Positions 21,276 through 37,777 of a stretch of 37,777 nucleotides of DNA are shown one piece after another. Below the pieces are notes generated by a model. It ran no database searches, was not told where the DNA came from, and saw only the letters and a list, made by a program, of their open reading frames with translations. Source of the DNA: a virus; IMG/VR virus record IMGVR_UViG_3300028829_001498, positions 1-37,777 of that record. One strand, given 5' to 3'. Both the position numbers and the translations under genes were made by a program. Position 1 is the first letter of the stretch, and each line of letters opens with the position of its first letter.

Positions 21276-21712
21276 ATGAAGAAGTAAAGTGGTCACAGGA
21301 TAGCATGTTAGAAGTAACTCTAACCCAACCAGATGATTTTTTAAAAGTCAGAGAAACACTTACTAGAATAGGTGTCGCAAGTAGAAAAGATAAAACACTA
21401 TTTCAATCTTGTCATATTCTACATAAACAAGGGAAATATTACATAGTACATTTTAAAGAGTTATTTGCTTTAGACGGCAAGAAAGCAACTCTAATTAACA
21501 ACGATATTCAACGTAGAAATACTATTGCTATATTGTTACAAGACTGGAATTTAATAGATATTATTGAAAAAGAAACAGCAATATCAAATAAGGCACCATT
21601 ATCACAAATTAAAGTATTACCATTTAAAGAGAAAAAAGAGTGGATATTATCTGCTAAATATAATATAGGTAAGAAAATAGTTAAGGAAGATAATGCAGAT
21701 ACCAAAGTTTAG
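21272..21712 (+). CDS. regA: RegA translational repressor
   Basis: A 146-residue protein whose residues 12-135 align with T4 RegA (122 residues): LEVTLTQPDDFLKVRETLTRIGVASRKDKTLFQSCHILHKQGKYYIVHFKELFALDG against T4 IEITLKKPEDFLKVKETLTRMGIANNKDKVLYQSCHILQKKGLYYIVHFKEMLRMDG. RegA binds near the start codons of many early phage mRNAs and blocks ribosome binding. A short N-terminal and C-terminal extension is present. The mRNA of several leaderless genes in this phage would offer RegA an unusual target. Confidence 0.96.
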   Translation: MNEEVKWSQDSMLEVTLTQPDDFLKVRETLTRIGVASRKDKTLFQSCHILHKQGKYYIVHFKELFALDGKKATLINNDIQRRNTIAILLQDWNLIDIIEKETAISNKAPLSQIKVLPFKEKKEWILSAKYNIGKKIVKEDNADTKV

Positions 21713-23174
21713 AGACTATATAACAGAGAATACACAGACACGTAAGGGTAAAGCAATGACAGTTGCTATCCTAACTATAAACGATTCAAATAAACCTAAC
21801 AAGGATTCAACTGTTGAACTTATAGAAAAAGCTTGTATCAAAAAAAAGATCAAGTGTATTATAGTCAATACAAAAACAACCATTATTACAGGTAAAGATG
21901 AAGATAAGAACACCCTAACAGTGTTTAACTACGATGGTAAGAATGGTGAACATACTTTCGTAGGTAAAGATACTGCCTGTATAACAAGAGGTGGTGCAGT
22001 GGAAGACGAAGCTGGACTGTCTTTAATATCTGCCTTTCAAAATTCACAATCTTTTATGATGAATACAAGAGCTTCTATGCTTACTTGTGATAATAAATTA
22101 ACATCAGCTTTACTATTTGAAAAAAATGGTATACCTACACCAAGAACTGCTTTTATATCTAACGAAAAAAATATAAAAACAGGTTTAGATTTAATTGGTG
22201 GTAAATTTCCTGTCATATTAAAAACATTAACAGGTACACAAGGTGTCGGTGTAGTTAAAATAGAAAGTTATGAAGGCCTGGTTGCTACTGTACAAGCCAT
22301 GTGGAAATTAGGTGCTGAACTTTTAATACAAGAATTTATGGAAACAAAGTTTGATGTAAGAACTTTTGTAGTAGATAATAAAATTATTGCAAGTACAAAA
22401 AGAGTACATAGCTCATATGACTTTAGGTCAAATACACATAGAGGTGCCGAGGCAATGCCTTATATTTTAAGTGATGAAGAATACGAACTAGTTTTAAAAG
22501 CTTCAAGAGCTTCAAAAGCATATATGGTAGGAGTTGATCATATAGTAAACAATAAAAAACCATACATTTTAGAAATCAATGGTAGTCCAGGATCAGGTGC
22601 TGATTATCAAGGTTACCAATATAAAGATTATTATTCTGATCCAGAACCATCTGGTAGAATAGACGGTGAAAAAATGATGGAATATCTAGTAGATTATATA
22701 TCAGATAGAACTAATTGGGACAGACAATCTTTAGTAGAGAGTGGTTGGTTAGAAACGGTAGAACTAGAAGATGGTTTAAAAGTCAGAGCAAAATTTGATA
22801 CAGGTAACGGTGCTAAAGCATGTGCTTTACACGCCGATGATATTTTAAGTAAAGACAAAATTGTTAAATGGACATATGATGGTAAAACTTATAGTAAACC
22901 AAGACATGGTATAAGTAAAGTATTCAGAGCAAATGCTGAAGGAGAAGAACCATCAGAAACAAGACCAACAATTCTTATGGATATTACATTTAATGGTTTT
23001 ACATATAAAGATGTAGAAGTAGGTTTAGATAATAGACCAAGAGCACATTCCGATTTGTTGGTGAATCGTGAGATAATGAGACAAATGAACATTAGTGTCA
23101 ACCCTAATAGAACGTTTGTATTAAGTAAAAGACTAAAGCCGGTTGACAAAGACTACGATAAAGATGAAGAATAA
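21693..23174 (+). CDS. RimK-like ATP-grasp ligase fused to RimB-like zinc protease domain
   Basis: A 493-residue fusion. Residues about 22-335 form an ATP-grasp domain of RimK type: TCDNKLTSALLFEKNGIPTPRT, FPVILKTLTGTQGVGV, LIQEFMETKFDVRTFVV, and the metal/ATP site YILEINGSPG (291-300). RimK-type ligases add glutamates to a protein C-terminus (ribosomal protein S6 in E. coli) or to small molecules. Residues about 352-485 form a retropepsin-like fold of the RimB/ATP-dependent zinc protease family, with DTGNGA (369-374) and LVNREIM (456-462). The start with a well-placed AAGGA (21683-21687) adds 21 residues carrying FRDYITE, similar to tags on late genes here; an internal ATG (21756) is the alternative. 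The substrate is unproven. Confidence 0.83.
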   Translation: MQIPKFRDYITENTQTRKGKAMTVAILTINDSNKPNKDSTVELIEKACIKKKIKCIIVNTKTTIITGKDEDKNTLTVFNYDGKNGEHTFVGKDTACITRGGAVEDEAGLSLISAFQNSQSFMMNTRASMLTCDNKLTSALLFEKNGIPTPRTAFISNEKNIKTGLDLIGGKFPVILKTLTGTQGVGVVKIESYEGLVATVQAMWKLGAELLIQEFMETKFDVRTFVVDNKIIASTKRVHSSYDFRSNTHRGAEAMPYILSDEEYELVLKASRASKAYMVGVDHIVNNKKPYILEINGSPGSGADYQGYQYKDYYSDPEPSGRIDGEKMMEYLVDYISDRTNWDRQSLVESGWLETVELEDGLKVRAKFDTGNGAKACALHADDILSKDKIVKWTYDGKTYSKPRHGISKVFRANAEGEEPSETRPTILMDITFNGFTYKDVEVGLDNRPRAHSDLLVNREIMRQMNISVNPNRTFVLSKRLKPVDKDYDKDEE

Positions 23175-31754: not shown

Positions 31755-31762
31755 TATAAATA
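31755..31762 (+). promoter_or_regulatory. T4-type late promoter (TATAAATA) at the head of the right-hand block
   Basis: Exact late octamer in the gap after the replication genes, 18 bases before ATG 31780. A weak sigma70-like pair, TTGCCT (31744-31749) and TATGAG (31767-31772) with 17-base spacing, overlaps it. Confidence 0.65.
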
Positions 31763-31779
31763 TGTTATGAGAGAGAAAT

Positions 31780-33201
31780 ATGGCTTATAATTTAGCAACA
31801 CTATCAACACTAACACAACACGTACCGTCTAATATAAAGAAAGACTTTACTTCTTTATTAAATATGATGGTAGAGGGTGCATATTATGGCGATGATTCTC
31901 CTGTCACAAAATCTAAAGTCTACATAGTAAAAGTATCTCCAGACAATTTAAAAAAAGTCCTACCTACACTAGAAAAAAAGTATACTGCTAAGATACAATC
32001 AGGTGCTAAAAAACAAGCAGACTTTATAGTACAAGGTTATAAGATTAAATTTATAGAAACAGGTAAGAAGTCTGTAAAACAACTAGACGCACAAGTCACA
32101 GCAAAACAAGAAAATGCCTCACTATGGATTATAAGAAGAGCATTGAAAGACAATATTAGATATACTTGTCCTGAAGACATATCTAAAGACAAAAAATTTA
32201 AAGAACTAGTTAGAATATATCCAGATGTGGTAGAAGATGAGTGGTTACAAAATTTTTATGCACAACAGAAAAAAATGTTAGAAGTGTTTAGAGGTAAATC
32301 ATGGACAGAATATAACAGAGACGGTGGTTTTATGAATTATATCTCTAACGTAATAAGAGATAAGTTTAAGATTTCAAAAAAAGATAGTTGGAATCCTGCT
32401 GACATATGGTTAATTAAAAATGAAAATGATGTTAGAAGAACTATTGACAATGCAATGAAAGGTAACTCTGTATCTATATCTAAACTAAATGACGTAATGA
32501 AAACTTTATATAGTCAATACAAATTGGCAGGTATATCATTAAAAAAAGTTTCAGGTAAAGAAGCAAAGTATGAAGAAGTAAATACTAAAAATGCATTGAT
32601 GAAGGACTCCAAGTTTACAATGAAGTTAGATAGATCAGTTATGAAAATGGGTAACAAAACTGACAAGACATTAGTATCTGCTGATATGAGAATAGATATA
32701 AAGTCTGCTAACGATGTTTGTGAATTTCAGATAAGACAAAACGGAAAAGGATTTAATCAGAATTTAAAATTTGATGGCAAATTCAAAGGTTCTGGTGCAG
32801 CTCGTATAGGAAAAGTACCAGTAGACTTATTAGCAAGATTAATGGCCGAATATGGTGTAGGAAATAATAATAGATTATTTTTTGTAAATGATCATAATCA
32901 ATATCCTAAATCATTGGCTGCCTTTGATAAGGTAAAATCGGTATACCTAAAACGATTTAAATTAGTAAACCGATATACTGATACGGGTATTACAGATAGT
33001 AAATTTATTGAAAGTATGATAAAATCATATAACAGTAATGATCTAAAGAACGGTGTATCACATACTAAACTAATGGAACTAGATTTTTTATACTGTATTT
33101 ACTCTATATCACCAGCAAAAAGAAACAAAATGCTAACAGATATGGTGTTTTTAGCTGAGAAAAGAGGGTCACAATTTGGTCCTTTTGGCAAGTTATATTA
33201 G
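31780..33201 (+). CDS. Large unrecognised protein, probably late expressed
   Basis: A 473-residue soluble protein behind a TATAAATA promoter. Visible elements are a basic N-terminal third, DSWNPADIWLIKNENDVRRTI, then AGISLKKVSGKEAKYEEVN, and a C-terminal half with CEFQIRQNGKGFNQNLKFDGKFKGSGAARIGKVP. The combination of a W.PADIW segment followed by a SLKKV strand seems familiar to me from large proteins of other marine phages, but I cannot attach a function. A nucleic-acid-related role is possible given the following genes. No signal peptide, membrane segment or classical catalytic motif is seen. Confidence 0.6.
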   Translation: MAYNLATLSTLTQHVPSNIKKDFTSLLNMMVEGAYYGDDSPVTKSKVYIVKVSPDNLKKVLPTLEKKYTAKIQSGAKKQADFIVQGYKIKFIETGKKSVKQLDAQVTAKQENASLWIIRRALKDNIRYTCPEDISKDKKFKELVRIYPDVVEDEWLQNFYAQQKKMLEVFRGKSWTEYNRDGGFMNYISNVIRDKFKISKKDSWNPADIWLIKNENDVRRTIDNAMKGNSVSISKLNDVMKTLYSQYKLAGISLKKVSGKEAKYEEVNTKNALMKDSKFTMKLDRSVMKMGNKTDKTLVSADMRIDIKSANDVCEFQIRQNGKGFNQNLKFDGKFKGSGAARIGKVPVDLLARLMAEYGVGNNNRLFFVNDHNQYPKSLAAFDKVKSVYLKRFKLVNRYTDTGITDSKFIESMIKSYNSNDLKNGVSHTKLMELDFLYCIYSISPAKRNKMLTDMVFLAEKRGSQFGPFGKLY

Positions 33202-33209
33202 TATAAATA
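33202..33209 (+). promoter_or_regulatory. T4-type late promoter (TATAAATA)
   Basis: Exact octamer starting directly after the stop codon of the preceding gene, about 60 bases before the ligase-like gene. The gap down to 33268 has only a 14-codon ORF and no clear hairpin. Confidence 0.6.
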
Positions 33210-33268: not shown

Positions 33269-34489
33269 ATGTTTAATTTTAAAGGTTTCATAACTAAAGA
33301 AAAGAACACACATTTAGAACATCTAGAAGACGATATAATTAATAGAGGTTCAGAAGGTGGCGATAATGCTATAAAGTTTCTAAAATCAATTAGAAACATG
33401 CTGGTAGGGTCATCTGGTGCCAAAGTAAATATGTCTGTCAAATGGGATGGTGCGCCTGCTATTGTGTGTGGTGTCAATCCAGAAAACGGTAAATTCTTTG
33501 TTGGTACTAAATCTGTATTCAACGCAACTCCAAAAATCAATTATACACCAGGTGATATTAGAAGTAATCATAGTGGACCTGTTGCAGATAAACTAAACGT
33601 TTGTTTAAGAGAATTAAAAAAATTAAGAATTACAGGTATCTATCAAGGAGATTTACTCTTTACAAACGATACTAAAATACAAAATATAGATGGTGAGGCC
33701 ATGATAACTTTCACACCAAACACAATTACATATGCAACACCAGTAAACTCTACTCTAGGTAAAAAAATTAGAAGAGCAAGAATGGGAATAGTATTTCATA
33801 CAAGTTATACAGGTAAAGACATGAAAAGTTTAGGTGCTGGATTTGGTACAATATCTGGTAGATCAGGATCATCGGCAGTATTTTTAGCAAGTGCTGGTTA
33901 TACAGATACTTCCGGTTCATCAACATTTACTAGTGGTGAACTATCTAGATTTGACGCCTTAATTAGAATGGCAGAGGGATCACTTTCAAAAGCTTCAACA
34001 ATATTAAATGAAATGTCAAGATCAAATGATTCTTTATCAGTTGGTTTCAGACTAAAGTCTTTCTTTAATCACTATATTAGAAACACACAAGGCCATATGG
34101 GTAAGGTTAAACAATTACAAAAAATGTTTAGAGATTACTACGAGAATATTTTAACGGAAGAAATAGCAAATAGAAAAACAGAAAAAGGTAAACAAAAGTA
34201 TAGAGATATATTAGATACTAATTTAAAATTTATAGATAGAAACGAACAAGCATTATATTTTACCATAGCTTCTCATGTAAGTTTAGGTAATGCAAAGAAC
34301 TTTCTAATTCAAAAACTATCTCAAATACAAAGTATCGGACATTTTATTAGAACATCAAGTGGTTACAGAGTAACTAATCCAGAGGGTTATGTTGCAGTAA
34401 GTAGAGCTGCTGGTGCAATTAAATTAGTAGACAGATTAGAATTTAGTAGAGCAAACTTTACTATTGCTAAAGATTGGGTAAAAGGATAA
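33269..34489 (+). CDS. ATP-grasp-independent ligase-like nucleotidyltransferase (KxDG family)
   Basis: A 406-residue protein with an ordered set of motifs like those of DNA/RNA ligases: motif I KWDGAP (58-63, K58 as candidate AMP-accepting lysine), GIYQGDLLF (123-131, resembling motif III), MGIVFHTSY (172-180, IIIa-like), EGYVAV (372-377, motif IV-like) and IKLVDR (384-389, motif V-like). A helical insertion separates IIIa from IV. It begins MFNFKGFITKE, similar to the N-terminal tags of neighbouring genes. It might join nucleic acid ends or simply adenylylate a target. It lies in a late block with two P-loop kinases and a nucleotidyltransferase. The family name is not recalled. Confidence 0.6.
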   Translation: MFNFKGFITKEKNTHLEHLEDDIINRGSEGGDNAIKFLKSIRNMLVGSSGAKVNMSVKWDGAPAIVCGVNPENGKFFVGTKSVFNATPKINYTPGDIRSNHSGPVADKLNVCLRELKKLRITGIYQGDLLFTNDTKIQNIDGEAMITFTPNTITYATPVNSTLGKKIRRARMGIVFHTSYTGKDMKSLGAGFGTISGRSGSSAVFLASAGYTDTSGSSTFTSGELSRFDALIRMAEGSLSKASTILNEMSRSNDSLSVGFRLKSFFNHYIRNTQGHMGKVKQLQKMFRDYYENILTEEIANRKTEKGKQKYRDILDTNLKFIDRNEQALYFTIASHVSLGNAKNFLIQKLSQIQSIGHFIRTSSGYRVTNPEGYVAVSRAAGAIKLVDRLEFSRANFTIAKDWVKG

Positions 34490-34508
34490 TGAAAACATTT
34501 AAACAGTA
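34489..34508 (+). repeat. 20-base direct repeat, copy 1 (start of adenylate kinase-like gene)
   Basis: Identical to 35081-35100. Each copy begins at an ATG and encodes MKTFKQ plus the first two bases of a Tyr codon. It marks either a duplicated tag-encoding segment or strong codon-level conservation. Confidence 0.9.
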
Positions 34509-35094
34509 CGTTACAGAGGTAGATAACAAATATGTTTATGCAGTTGAACAACCAAAGATTGTTTTAATTGGTGGTCCAGGTTCGGGTAAATCTACTTATG
34601 CAAAATTTTTAGTAAAAGAATTTAATATAAAACATATCTATCCTGGTGATTTATTGAGAGCAGAAAAGGCCAAAGGTGGTGATATTGCAGATAGATTATC
34701 TGATTTAGGTAAAGGTGGTTTTGCACCTAATGATATTGTTTTAGAACTAGTATTCAAGGCTGTTGCAGAGGCGAAAGGTGGTTTTGTATTTGATGGCTTT
34801 CCTAGATATATGCAACAAGTAAGAGATTTACAACACAAAAAGATTAGCATAAACAATGTGGTCTTTCTAAATGTAAGTGAAAAAGAAGTTATTAGAAGAT
34901 TGACTGCTAGAGGTCGGGCTGATGATAAACCAGAAATTATAAAAAATAGAATATCTTTATATAAAAAAGAAACCGGTCCTGTAATTGATTATTACAGAGA
35001 CAAACAAGGGTTCATAGAAATAAAAGCTGAAGGTGGAGAACCGGAAGAGATAGCAAATACAATAATAAATAAGGTTAAAAATGAAAACATTTAA
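34489..35094 (+). CDS. Adenylate kinase-like P-loop kinase with capsid-targeting-like N-terminus
   Basis: ATG 34489 (TAATG overlap) gives 201 residues. Adenylate kinase motifs are in order: P-loop GGPGSGKST (28-36), GDLLR (53-57) of the AMP site, FDGFPR (101-106), and RLTARGRADDKPEIIKNR with the lid arginines, followed by YYRDKQGFIEI. The lid is short. The enzyme would interconvert ATP, ADP and AMP, or phosphorylate another nucleotide. Residues 1-20 (MKTFKQYVTEV...) lie outside the kinase fold and resemble the T4 IPIII leader MKTYQEFIAEA. It overlaps the next gene by 14 nt. Confidence 0.82.
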   Translation: MKTFKQYVTEVDNKYVYAVEQPKIVLIGGPGSGKSTYAKFLVKEFNIKHIYPGDLLRAEKAKGGDIADRLSDLGKGGFAPNDIVLELVFKAVAEAKGGFVFDGFPRYMQQVRDLQHKKISINNVVFLNVSEKEVIRRLTARGRADDKPEIIKNRISLYKKETGPVIDYYRDKQGFIEIKAEGGEPEEIANTIINKVKNENI

Positions 35095-35100
35095 ACAGTA
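35081..35100 (+). repeat. 20-base direct repeat, copy 2 (start of small conserved gene)
   Basis: Second copy of the repeat at 34489-34508, again exactly at a start codon. Confidence 0.9.
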
Positions 35101-35437
35101 TGAAAACAAAGTAGAAGAAATTGATTCTATTTGTGAAAATATGAAATACGATGACCTTGTGGTAGAAGAAGCCGAACATCAAGGTAAAAAAGTAAAATTA
35201 AATAACCCTACCAGATCAAATGATGGTAAAAAGAAGTTTTACGTATATGTAAAAAATGAAAAGGGTAATATAGTTAAGGTTGGATTTGGTGATCCGAATA
35301 TGGAAATAAAAAGAGACGACCCTAATAGAAGAAAGAATTTTAGAGCAAGACACAACTGTGCTAATCCAGGTCCTAAATGGAAAGCAAGATACTGGAGTTG
35401 TTATCAGTGGAGAGCTGGCGCTAAGGTGGACAATTAA
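35081..35437 (+). CDS. Small conserved phage protein with tag-like N-terminus, unknown
   Basis: A 118-residue protein. The N-terminus MKTFKQYENKVEE shares the tag of neighbouring genes; an acidic linker follows, then a compact basic domain from about residue 35: KKVKLNNPTRSNDGKKKFYVYVKNEKG, VGFGDPNMEIKRDDPNRRKNFRARHNC and GPKWKARYWSCYQW. I recall this domain from T4-like cyanophages, but without a known function. The two cysteines and many aromatic and basic residues may suit nucleic acid or capsid binding. It precedes sufE by 11 bases. Confidence 0.65.
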   Translation: MKTFKQYENKVEEIDSICENMKYDDLVVEEAEHQGKKVKLNNPTRSNDGKKKFYVYVKNEKGNIVKVGFGDPNMEIKRDDPNRRKNFRARHNCANPGPKWKARYWSCYQWRAGAKVDN

Positions 35438-35448
35438 AAGGAGATATA

Positions 35449-36108
35449 ATGTATATAAAAGGTGGAATGAAAAAACTAAGCAAAGCAATAGCAAAATCTA
35501 CTAAAGAGAGTTTAGATAGAGAAATAGCTATCGCAGAAGAGGAACAAAGAATAATGGACGAAGAAAATGGTATCAAATTTCCTACAAATCCGGAAATAGA
35601 CCAAACATATGAAGCGCCTGAACCTATATTAAATGAAGATAGAAAGTTAGTTGAGTTGGCTGATGGTTCAAAATTAGAAGAAATGTCAATCAAAGAAAAG
35701 ATTGGTACATGGTCACACAATTTTAATCAATTAGACCCACACAATAAATTTTTCTACTTGTTAGAACAAGGTAGGGGTATTGTTGAACTAGATGATACAA
35801 AAAGAATAAATGGATATAGAGTATACGGATGTGTTAGTCAAGTATGGGTATTGCCGTTACTAAAAAATGAGAAGATGATCTTTGAAGTAGACGCTGATTC
35901 ACACGAGGCTAGAGGTGTAATGTATATTTTACAATCAATATTTTCAGGTCACTCACCATCTGAAATTTTAGAAGTAACAGATCAAGAAATAATTGATATA
36001 GGTTTCTTTGAAACATTGAACGAAAAAAGACGAGATGGTACTTTTGCAGTAGTCAATGCTATAAGAACATATGCCAAAGATATGGTTGAAATGTTATCAG
36101 GCGAATAA
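35449..36108 (+). CDS. sufE: SufE-like sulfur acceptor with N-terminal extension
   Basis: The C-terminal 130 residues follow SufE: YGCVSQVW (C128 as sulfur-accepting cysteine; usual V.GCQSQVW), FEVDADSHEARGVMYILQSIFSGHSPSEIL and a closing RRDGTFAVVNAIRTYA (usual SR.NGL..M...I). SufE takes persulfide from the SufS cysteine desulfurase and hands it to the SufBCD scaffold for Fe-S assembly. The first 75 residues are an acidic, coiled-coil-like extension not seen in bacterial SufE (about 140 residues). It has AAGGAG before the ATG. A second ATG at residue 7 is possible. It may support the phage ferredoxin and radical SAM proteins. Confidence 0.85.
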   Translation: MYIKGGMKKLSKAIAKSTKESLDREIAIAEEEQRIMDEENGIKFPTNPEIDQTYEAPEPILNEDRKLVELADGSKLEEMSIKEKIGTWSHNFNQLDPHNKFFYLLEQGRGIVELDDTKRINGYRVYGCVSQVWVLPLLKNEKMIFEVDADSHEARGVMYILQSIFSGHSPSEILEVTDQEIIDIGFFETLNEKRRDGTFAVVNAIRTYAKDMVEMLSGE

Positions 36109-36120
36109 AACGGAACAGCA

Positions 36121-36813
36121 ATGAAAAACTTACAAGAAGTAAAAGCATTTTTAAATGAGGGTGTCTATGACAAAGGCATTTTCAAGGCCTTCTTTTTGGC
36201 GGGAGGACCTGGATCAGGTAAATCTTTCGTTACGCAAACCGCTTTTGCCGGTATAGGATTAAAAGTAGTAAACTCTGATACAATTTTTGAAAGAGAATTG
36301 TTAAAAGCAAACATGTCACTAAAAATGCCAGATGAGGAAGCATACTTTAGAGATAAGATAAGAGCAAAAGCAAAAGTTACAGCAGGTTCACAATTAGACG
36401 CCTATGTAAGAGGAAGATTAGGACTTGTTATTGACGCAACAGGTCGTGATAAAACTGTTATCAGTAGACAATATTCTATGTTAAAAGCAATAGGTTATGA
36501 TTGTTATATGATCTTTGTAAACACAAGTTTAGATGTGGCCTTAATGAGAAATGAATTAAGACCTAGATCAGTGCCAGAATATCTTGTAAAGAATAGTTGG
36601 AACAAAGTACAATCTAATATAGGTTCTTTTCAACAAATATTCAGACCAAGTAATATACTAATTGTTGATAACAATAGATCAGAAAAAGAATTAGTAACCA
36701 ATACCATTCAAACTGCTTCAAAATATATTAGAAGACAAATGAATAAACAGCCAGATAATTATCTAGCAAAACAATGGATAGCAAGAGAACTAGCAGCTAA
36801 GAAAAGAATATGA
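36121..36813 (+). CDS. P-loop kinase (AAA_33/polynucleotide kinase-zeta toxin type)
   Basis: A 230-residue protein with Walker A GGPGSGKS (28-35) in FFLAGGPGSGKSFVTQ, an acidic catalytic segment VVNSDTIFERE after it, and GLVIDATGRDKTVISRQ, as in polynucleotide-kinase- and zeta-toxin-like kinases. YDCYMIFVNTSLDVALMRNELRPR resembles the lid of that group. No phosphatase domain is attached. The N-terminus MKNLQEVKAFLNEG contains FLNE-G, which fits a T4 gp21-type cleavage site (L/I-x-E). The substrate (nucleic acid 5' end, nucleotide or small molecule) is unknown. It overlaps the next gene by four bases. Confidence 0.72.
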   Translation: MKNLQEVKAFLNEGVYDKGIFKAFFLAGGPGSGKSFVTQTAFAGIGLKVVNSDTIFERELLKANMSLKMPDEEAYFRDKIRAKAKVTAGSQLDAYVRGRLGLVIDATGRDKTVISRQYSMLKAIGYDCYMIFVNTSLDVALMRNELRPRSVPEYLVKNSWNKVQSNIGSFQQIFRPSNILIVDNNRSEKELVTNTIQTASKYIRRQMNKQPDNYLAKQWIARELAAKKRI

Positions 36814-37777
36814 TTAAAAAATTTAAAGATTATTTAATTAAAGAAAGTATCATAGATATACCTAGAAAAACATATGCTCCTGGTGTATTTGATAAGGCTG
36901 ATAGTAAAGACCCTATAATAAAACCTAGTGTCAAAAAACAAATACAAGATCAGATTAAAGAATTTGAAAAAGAATATCCTGTTAATAAGATAGCATTAAT
37001 AGGATCAATACTAACAAAGAGATATAGAAATGACGCTGATCTTGACATTAATGTATTGTTTGATGTGCCAAAAGAAAAACAAGAACAAGAAAGAGTTGAT
37101 CTTTCTCAAAAGTATTTGTCAGCAAAGAACCCAAAAAATATTCAAGGTAAGTTAATACCTGGTACACAACACCCTATCAACTATTATTTTTTAACTGATC
37201 AATCAACTTATGATGATCAAAATAAAAAAGCAGACGCAGTGTTTGATATAGAAAACGATAAGTTTATTAAAAGACCAGACGACTTTACTTTTGATACAAA
37301 CTTATATGTAAAAGAATTTGAAAGAAAAGTACAAGAGTTAGATGTAATTAAAGGTGAATTAAAAAGAGATATAATAGATTACAATGAATTAGTTGAATTA
37401 CAACCAGATGATATCTTAAACTTACAAGACAAAATTAATACAAAGTTAGAAGAAATAGAAGATAGTATTTCAGATGTAATAAAAATAGGTGATGATGTTG
37501 ACGCAGAAAGAAGAGCAGCATTTAATAGTGATATGACACCAGACCAAATAAGAAAGTATGGTAGTAAAAATAGATTACCTAAAAATGTTATCTATAAAAT
37601 GTTAGAGAAATACCACTATTTAAAATTCTATAAAAAATGTAAACAAATTTTAGATGATGGTAAAGTTACAGACGATGAGATAAAAAGTTTGACTAACGAA
37701 CAAATAGATGAAATGAATTTAGAATCCATTGCTTCAGCATGGACAGATTTAATTAGAAGAACAATTAAAGCACCTCA
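36810..37777 (+). CDS. Pol-beta-type nucleotidyltransferase (3' end outside window)
   Basis: The frame is open from ATG 36810 (ATGA overlap) to the window edge, at least 322 residues. Residues 62-82, IALIGSILTKRYRNDADLDIN, hold the Pol-beta superfamily motif: G65-S66 followed by D77-x-D79, the metal-binding pair. The N-terminus MIKKFKDYLIKES is tag-like. The later part is helical and charged. Relatives with this motif add nucleotides to RNA, antibiotics or proteins, or modify phosphates; the target here is unknown. A third catalytic acid may be D103 or beyond and cannot be assigned by eye. Confidence 0.7.
   Translation, partial: MIKKFKDYLIKESIIDIPRKTYAPGVFDKADSKDPIIKPSVKKQIQDQIKEFEKEYPVNKIALIGSILTKRYRNDADLDINVLFDVPKEKQEQERVDLSQKYLSAKNPKNIQGKLIPGTQHPINYYFLTDQSTYDDQNKKADAVFDIENDKFIKRPDDFTFDTNLYVKEFERKVQELDVIKGELKRDIIDYNELVELQPDDILNLQDKINTKLEEIEDSISDVIKIGDDVDAERRAAFNSDMTPDQIRKYGSKNRLPKNVIYKMLEKYHYLKFYKKCKQILDDGKVTDDEIKSLTNEQIDEMNLESIASAWTDLIRRTIKAP

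Follow-up and report, generated by a model that had tools for sequence, protein, structure and literature searches.

Why should a T4-like marine myovirus (Kyanoviridae-type) carry a ligase-like protein, an adenylate-kinase-like protein, a P-loop kinase and a nucleotidyltransferase side by side? The question is raised by positions 33269-37777 of the IMG/VR fragment IMGVR_UViG_3300028829_001498 (37.8 kb; the whole stretch of 37,777 nucleotides is called the window in what follows), whose gene order and content, with DNA polymerase, UvsX and the gp41 helicase followed by the block in question, match those of Pelagibacter phage HTVC008M and other Kyanoviridae. An earlier annotation made from the letters alone, here the sequence-only reading, had seen in these four proteins a possible nucleic-acid end-repair kit, made late and packaged in the virion. 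All four genes are present in the block on the plus strand, each with a profile match; that reading had missed a 118-residue protein and a SufE-like protein, which bring the block to six plus-strand genes, and had not seen that the last gene is cut by the end of the contig. Its observation is confirmed and its interpretation partly supported. Our preferred explanation, given a probability of roughly 0.4, is that the block is a late operon whose proteins form an end-repair module for nucleic acids that is targeted to the virion. The firmer of the new results are the ligase-like motifs and predicted fold of the first protein of the block, the conserved late promoter in front of it, a protease site at the border of the N-terminal tags, and the agreement of these tags with virion proteomes.

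The first gene (33269-34489) encodes a 406-residue protein that matches the Pfam family DUF6267 (PF19782) with an E-value of 4.9e-120 and 401.8 bits, against a curated cut-off of 27. Pfam, NCBIfam, PADLOC and PDB sequences provide no name for it beyond its own Pfam family, nor is it named in any paper of the literature searched. Motif conservation was scored on an alignment of 123 diverse relatives, where motif I, K58-W-D-G (33440-33451), the motif III-like Q126-G-D128 (33644-33652) and motif IV, E372-G373 (34382-34387), are all invariant, as is the lysine of a motif V-like segment, K385-L-V-D-R389 (34421-34435), with R389 retained in more than 90% of sequences. Further invariant positions include the A-P-A that directly follows motif I, K81, N151, Y155, H177-T178 and V375. 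The identity of K58, W59, D60 and G61 in 123/123 sequences rules out a chance occurrence of KxDG. The succession of KxDG, motif III, EG and a motif V lysine is that of DNA and RNA ligases and of capping enzymes.

A first AlphaFold model, obtained from 56 closer relatives, was poor around motifs IV and V and its comparison with the PDB was uninformative; a second, deeper alignment gave a better model, with a mean predicted local distance difference test score (pLDDT) of 86.6 and a predicted template modeling score of 0.81. The protein is predicted to form a nucleotidyltransferase-like core, with the motifs on its strands, that is interrupted between motifs IIIa and IV by a five-helix insertion (residues 222-351; 33932-34321). 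When this model was used to search BFVD the top 13 matches (E below 0.001), where named, were members of the family or similar cyanophage proteins, and rank 14 was occupied by an RNA ligase encoded by Agrobacterium phage Atu_ph07 (E 1.6e-3, probability 0.97), the nearest fold outside the family, with seven further ligases or capping enzymes among the 50 matches listed. A weak match to PF09414 in Atu_ph07 is probably this same protein. Structure prediction, which the sequence-only reading had named as a check, did not place the KxDG protein outside the ligase superfamily, and motif order and predicted fold make it very probable that DUF6267 belongs, as a divergent protein, to the superfamily of ligase/capping nucleotidyltransferases. 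At E up to 1 the window protein has no listed match to PF09511 or PF09414, the families of T4 Rnl1 and Rnl2, and there was no significant ligase match when the PDB was searched by sequence with DUF6267, kinase and Pol-beta protein as queries. We read DUF6267 as lying outside the Rnl1, Rnl2 and DNA ligase families.

A T4-type late promoter, TATAAATA, is located 60 bases before DUF6267 (33202-33209, plus strand). Counting TATAAATA within 200 bases before the DUF6267 domain, over distinct upstream stretches, we find it in 140 of 276 relatives, compared with 10.5 expected and a maximum of 19 in 50 shuffles. It precedes none of 120 kinase genes and none of 137 Pol-beta genes, and across the window as a whole it is not enriched (5 seen, 9.7 expected). 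Since TATAAATA is kept before DUF6267 and never before the kinase or the Pol-beta gene, a single late promoter heads the operon. The neighboring upstream gene, which encodes a phrog_1462 protein (31755-33201), has its own TATAAATA at 31755, and relatives of this protein stand ahead of DUF6267 in many phages.

The shared N-terminal tags of the sequence-only reading are real, and both their sequences and the prohead-protease sites that they carry correspond to the capsid-targeting sequences of T4. DUF6267 starts with MFNFKGFITKEK (33269-33304) and its relatives with MQSFKQYLSE-A; the adenylate-kinase-like protein (34489-35094; PF00406, 7.9e-34) starts with MKTFKQYVTE, the 118-residue protein (35081-35437; phrog_7595, 1.6e-12) with MKTFKQY, the kinase (36121-36813) with MKNLQEVKAFLNE followed by G, and the Pol-beta nucleotidyltransferase (36810-37777) with MIKKFKDYLIKE followed by S, while the SufE-like protein (35449-36108; PF02657, 4.3e-23) is untagged. 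The tags MKTFKQYVTE, MKTFKQYENK, MKNLQEVKAFLNE and MIKKFKDYLIKE resemble MKTFKEF of T4 IpI and MKTYQEFIAE of IpII/IpIII. The gp21 prohead protease of T4 cleaves after L/I-x-E (PMC9026906). All 82 distinct kinase tags have E at the border with the domain and L (58), I (23) or V (1) at position -3; among 78 distinct Pol-beta tags E is found at the border in 76, and an aliphatic or aromatic residue-x-E in 69. A gp21-type protease is present in 8/8 relatives searched, the window ending short of the corresponding region. A strict tag pattern applied to the HTVC008M genome gave no clear tags in the block, where they escape the pattern because they are short (for example MIPFILKE-GLYD and MYNDLLVE-DKN). 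Tag, late promoter and kinase neighbor co-occur: untagged DUF6267 has the promoter in 0/26 cases and a kinase neighbor in 0/17, although the promoter, tag and neighbor sequences share kinship, so that none of these counts represents independent events. A tag-like start, MQIPKFRDYITE, is also seen on a RimK-type ATP-grasp protein at 21693-23174 of the window (TIGR00768, 9.5e-43), which has a C-terminal RloA2 retropepsin-like match.

Virion proteomes of homologues provide a gauge of what such tags do. T4-GC190, the cyanophage cytidylyltransferase, was experimentally detected in the S-SM1 virion (PMC3037559), and its N-terminus, MKKFSAFLNE-A, is tag-like; S-CREM2 gp154, which begins MKNFSSFLTE-A, is listed among virion proteins (PMC10665884, Table 3). 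In both cases checked, then, the tagged protein was a detected virion component, whereas the one untagged DUF6267 that was checked was not. We infer from these tagged HIGH-domain homologues that the window proteins themselves would be packaged, and it is quite likely that the proteins of the block are both late and packaged, the support being good where the kinase and Pol-beta/HIGH protein are concerned and weaker for DUF6267.

The kinase (230 residues) matches AAA_33 (1.6e-10), Zeta_toxin (2.2e-7) and the PHROG polynucleotide kinase profile phrog_505 (7.8e-8). Its Walker A motif, GGPGSGKS (36202-36225), contains K34, which is invariant together with D53, D105, R147 and R149 in 172 sequences. 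The protein, described earlier as polynucleotide-kinase-like, is equally zeta-like, and in some relatives Zeta_toxin is the better match. Its 230 residues contain no fused HAD phosphatase domain; a separate NT5C-like HAD gene is located downstream in relatives. Being zeta-like as well, the kinase alone was rejected as proof of RNA repair.

The last protein of the block matches PF01909 (NTP_transf_2) at 3.9e-6 and has the Pol-beta active-site motif G65-S66 ... D77-L-D79 (37002-37046), invariant in 161 sequences. Near-identical contigs (L166) show the protein at its full length of 769 residues, with a HIGH-type cytidylyltransferase-like domain (PF01467) after the Pol-beta part; the genes downstream encode a DUF5824 protein, a protein of unknown function and the NT5C-like HAD protein. 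A Pol-beta/HIGH protein of another locus (L048:8005-10977) carries a fused N-terminal PAP2-type phosphatase domain, and a tagged protein (MKTFKKYLNE-H) is encoded approximately 5 kb past the Pol-beta gene in L166:15343-15768 and L168:15109-15531.

That these proteins belong together is indicated by how they are arranged elsewhere. The order DUF6267-kinase-Pol-beta recurs over the IMG/VR loci, which were fetched with these same block proteins and for which the synteny count is consequently biased; the adenylate kinase, 118-residue and SufE-like genes are optional, the SufE-like iron-sulfur protein being present in some relatives only, and neither the adenylate kinase nor SufE was retained as a core member. 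Fusions join kinase to DUF6267 (L417), adenylate kinase to kinase (L188, L214, L256), kinase to Pol-beta and HIGH domains, and DUF6267 to a HIGH domain (in a PHROG profile and in S-PM2), and the domain of the 118-residue protein is found joined to HIGH-type enzymes elsewhere. Fusion and synteny, as read from sequence, thus support a single putative module of DUF6267, kinase and HIGH-type nucleotidyltransferase. DUF6267 occurs in 469 phage records and in almost all marine T4-like phages, and corresponds to T4-GC71, which adjoins T4-GC190; no Pol-beta protein was found in 50,697 records of phage isolates, and among isolates the kinase is confined to HTVC008M, the Melnitz phages and Atu_ph07. In the last of these, a jumbo phage, the kinase homologue and the weak PF09414 RNA-ligase match lie some 10 kb apart (L573, 39484-41820 and 52163-53137).

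Phage RNA repair has been described as the work of a ligase, a kinase and a Pol-beta nucleotidyltransferase (PMC7824862), and the presence of the same enzyme classes in the block favors the earlier RNA-repair idea. In the mechanism that we propose T4-type late transcription from TATAAATA, whose conservation is described above, would produce DUF6267, the kinase and the Pol-beta/HIGH protein. The N-terminal tags would then bring these proteins into the prohead core, where, following the logic of their sequences, a gp21-type protease would trim the tag after L/I-x-E, and the enzymes would be ejected together with the DNA. In the infected cell DUF6267 might use AMP bound to its K58 to activate a 5' end and then seal the break, with the kinase supplying 5' phosphates and the Pol-beta domain restoring lost nucleotides. 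The substrate would most likely be cleaved tRNA or other RNA, so that an RNA-cutting defense of the host could be undone from the start of infection. Nucleic-acid end repair as the role of the module is, in our estimate, an even bet; RNA, rather than DNA or small molecules, as its substrate is a more tentative assignment and somewhat less likely than not. The fullest version, in which a class of marine T4-like phages packs a whole pathway of RNA repair (a kinase, two nucleotidyltransferases and a ligase of a new family with a helical insertion) that mends tRNA from the start of infection, we regard as doubtful.

A number of results weigh against the proposal. At the level of DUF6267, motif V has V387 in place of the second lysine of KxK, and a PDB structure search gave no significant match, although its listing is enriched in ligases, 15 of the 50 entries being capping enzymes, fungal Trl1, T4 Rnl2 or NAD ligases. 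In hhalign comparisons T4 RnlA and the Atu_ph07 ligase score above control proteins, and RnlA is at or near the top of the T4 proteins, but these profile scores are weak and not significant. The claim of packaging is affected as well: the tag of the window DUF6267 has no good protease site (I-T-K-E in place of L/I-x-E), cyanophage DUF6267 is untagged, and that of S-CREM2 (302 residues, untagged, near 58.9 kb) is absent from the virion table of PMC10665884, whose authors also warn of carry-over in purification. With respect to RNA repair, no match to RlaP, the RNA-ligase-associated Pol-beta family, is listed for the Pol-beta domain at E up to 1, the HIGH domain weakly matches NMN adenylyltransferase families and so points also to nicotinamide adenine dinucleotide (NAD), and the profile matches of the kinase relate it to zeta toxins no less than to polynucleotide kinases. 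Finally, gene position in relatives, another check named at the outset, came out partly against the idea, the kinase of the Melnitz phages being approximately 52 kb away from DUF6267.

How do other explanations fare with the same data? DUF6267 could be the missing DNA ligase, doing the work of T4 gp30 in sealing Okazaki fragments and the nicks of recombination, with tagged late copies that mend nicks in the entering genome. Its location behind UvsX and gp41 within the replication cluster and its near universality in marine T4-like phages are as one would wish for such an enzyme, and cyanomyoviruses are without gp30 and may have distant homologues (PMC2984593). Seven of 8 relatives searched have no recognized DNA ligase, in a search whose PF09511 part had no positive control, and this makes a replicative role a serious rival. 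We nevertheless consider it unlikely, as Stenotrophomonas phage DLP_6 holds gp30 in addition to DUF6267, most of the BFVD neighbors from other families are RNA ligases (the weak PDB list, by contrast, is dominated by NAD DNA ligases), a tag and late promoter in many lineages are ill-suited to a replication enzyme, and the host ligase may suffice (PMC2984593).

A second explanation starts from the HIGH domain, which beyond its weak family matches is called NMNAT-like in cyanophage proteome papers. If it is a nicotinamide mononucleotide (NMN) adenylyltransferase, the injected proteins could form an NAD/nucleotide module in which the adenylate kinase and the NT5C-like protein, both encoded nearby, handle nucleotides and DUF6267, joined to the HIGH domain in S-PM2, is an adenylyl-transfer enzyme. 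The ligase-order motifs of DUF6267 belong, however, to enzymes that pass AMP or GMP onto nucleic-acid ends, neither the Pol-beta protein nor DUF6267 has a clear role in NAD metabolism, and the adenylate kinase is optional, all of which makes this an improbable account.

The injected proteins might alternatively be effectors, with a zeta-like kinase and a Pol-beta protein that would modify host small molecules, proteins or RNAs and so shut down or redirect the cell in the manner of T4 Alt, itself one of the packaged proteins of T4. Zeta_toxin scores that reach 1.5e-14 in relatives of the kinase, a PSTK match (4.9e-5) and an MntA-type match for the Pol-beta domain (0.0017) are consistent with this, but the conserved fusion of the kinase with a ligase-like protein is better suited to repair, and we consider the idea quite improbable. 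That the genes are unrelated accessories sharing only a late promoter is very improbable, given that the core proteins are fused in several different ways and that their order, DUF6267-kinase-Pol-beta, is conserved, even if the adenylate kinase, 118-residue and SufE genes come and go and the Melnitz kinase lies elsewhere.

Returning to the virion-targeted end-repair module, a kit that repairs RNA would be an answer to tRNA-cutting defense that is pre-loaded rather than made after infection. DUF6267 counts among the conserved proteins of marine T4-like phages that have no known function and was previously unrecognized as ligase-like; should it prove to be a ligase, it might close the gap left in cyanophages by the absence of gp30 (PMC2984593) and give context to the adjoining nucleotidyltransferase that is repeatedly found in virions. 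The combination of tag and L/I-x-E site offers, in addition, a simple rule for listing packaged enzymes of uncultured phages. Elsewhere in the window, the gene at 27372-28475 matches DruA, from the Druantia defense system, at a sub-threshold level (PF14236, 2.4e-5) and is otherwise assigned to phrog_19197.

Among known systems, T4 RnlA and PseT (Pnkp), which repair tRNA after PrrC, likewise pair a KxDG enzyme with a P-loop kinase. RnlA has KEDG and a core ending EGYVAV...FKIK where the window DUF6267 has KWDG and EGYVAV...IKLVDR; unlike RnlA, DUF6267 has a helical insertion, one motif V lysine and no PF09511 match, and the kinase of the block, unlike PseT, has no fused HAD phosphatase. RnlA and PseT are not known to be packaged. 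The block kinase has in common with zeta toxin and PezT the P-loop fold and an [ED]xTGR-like segment, but is tagged and fused to ligase-like or nucleotidyltransferase partners, with no antitoxin seen. The sets of ATP-grasp ligase, polynucleotide kinase and RlaP Pol-beta protein (PMC7824862) share three enzyme classes with the block, which differs from them in its ligase family, the lack of an RlaP match, an extra HIGH-type domain and capsid tags. In its MKTFK.. or MKTYQEFIAE-type N-termini, L/I-x-E sites and late expression the block is like T4 IpI-III and Alt, whose cargo consists of small inhibitors or an ADP-ribosyltransferase and not of an enzyme set. The direct homologues of the block proteins are cyanophage T4-GC71 (DUF6267) and T4-GC190, adjacent or fused, of which GC190 is tagged and GC71 untagged; the untagged forms are without late promoter and kinase neighbor, and no Pol-beta domain is present there.

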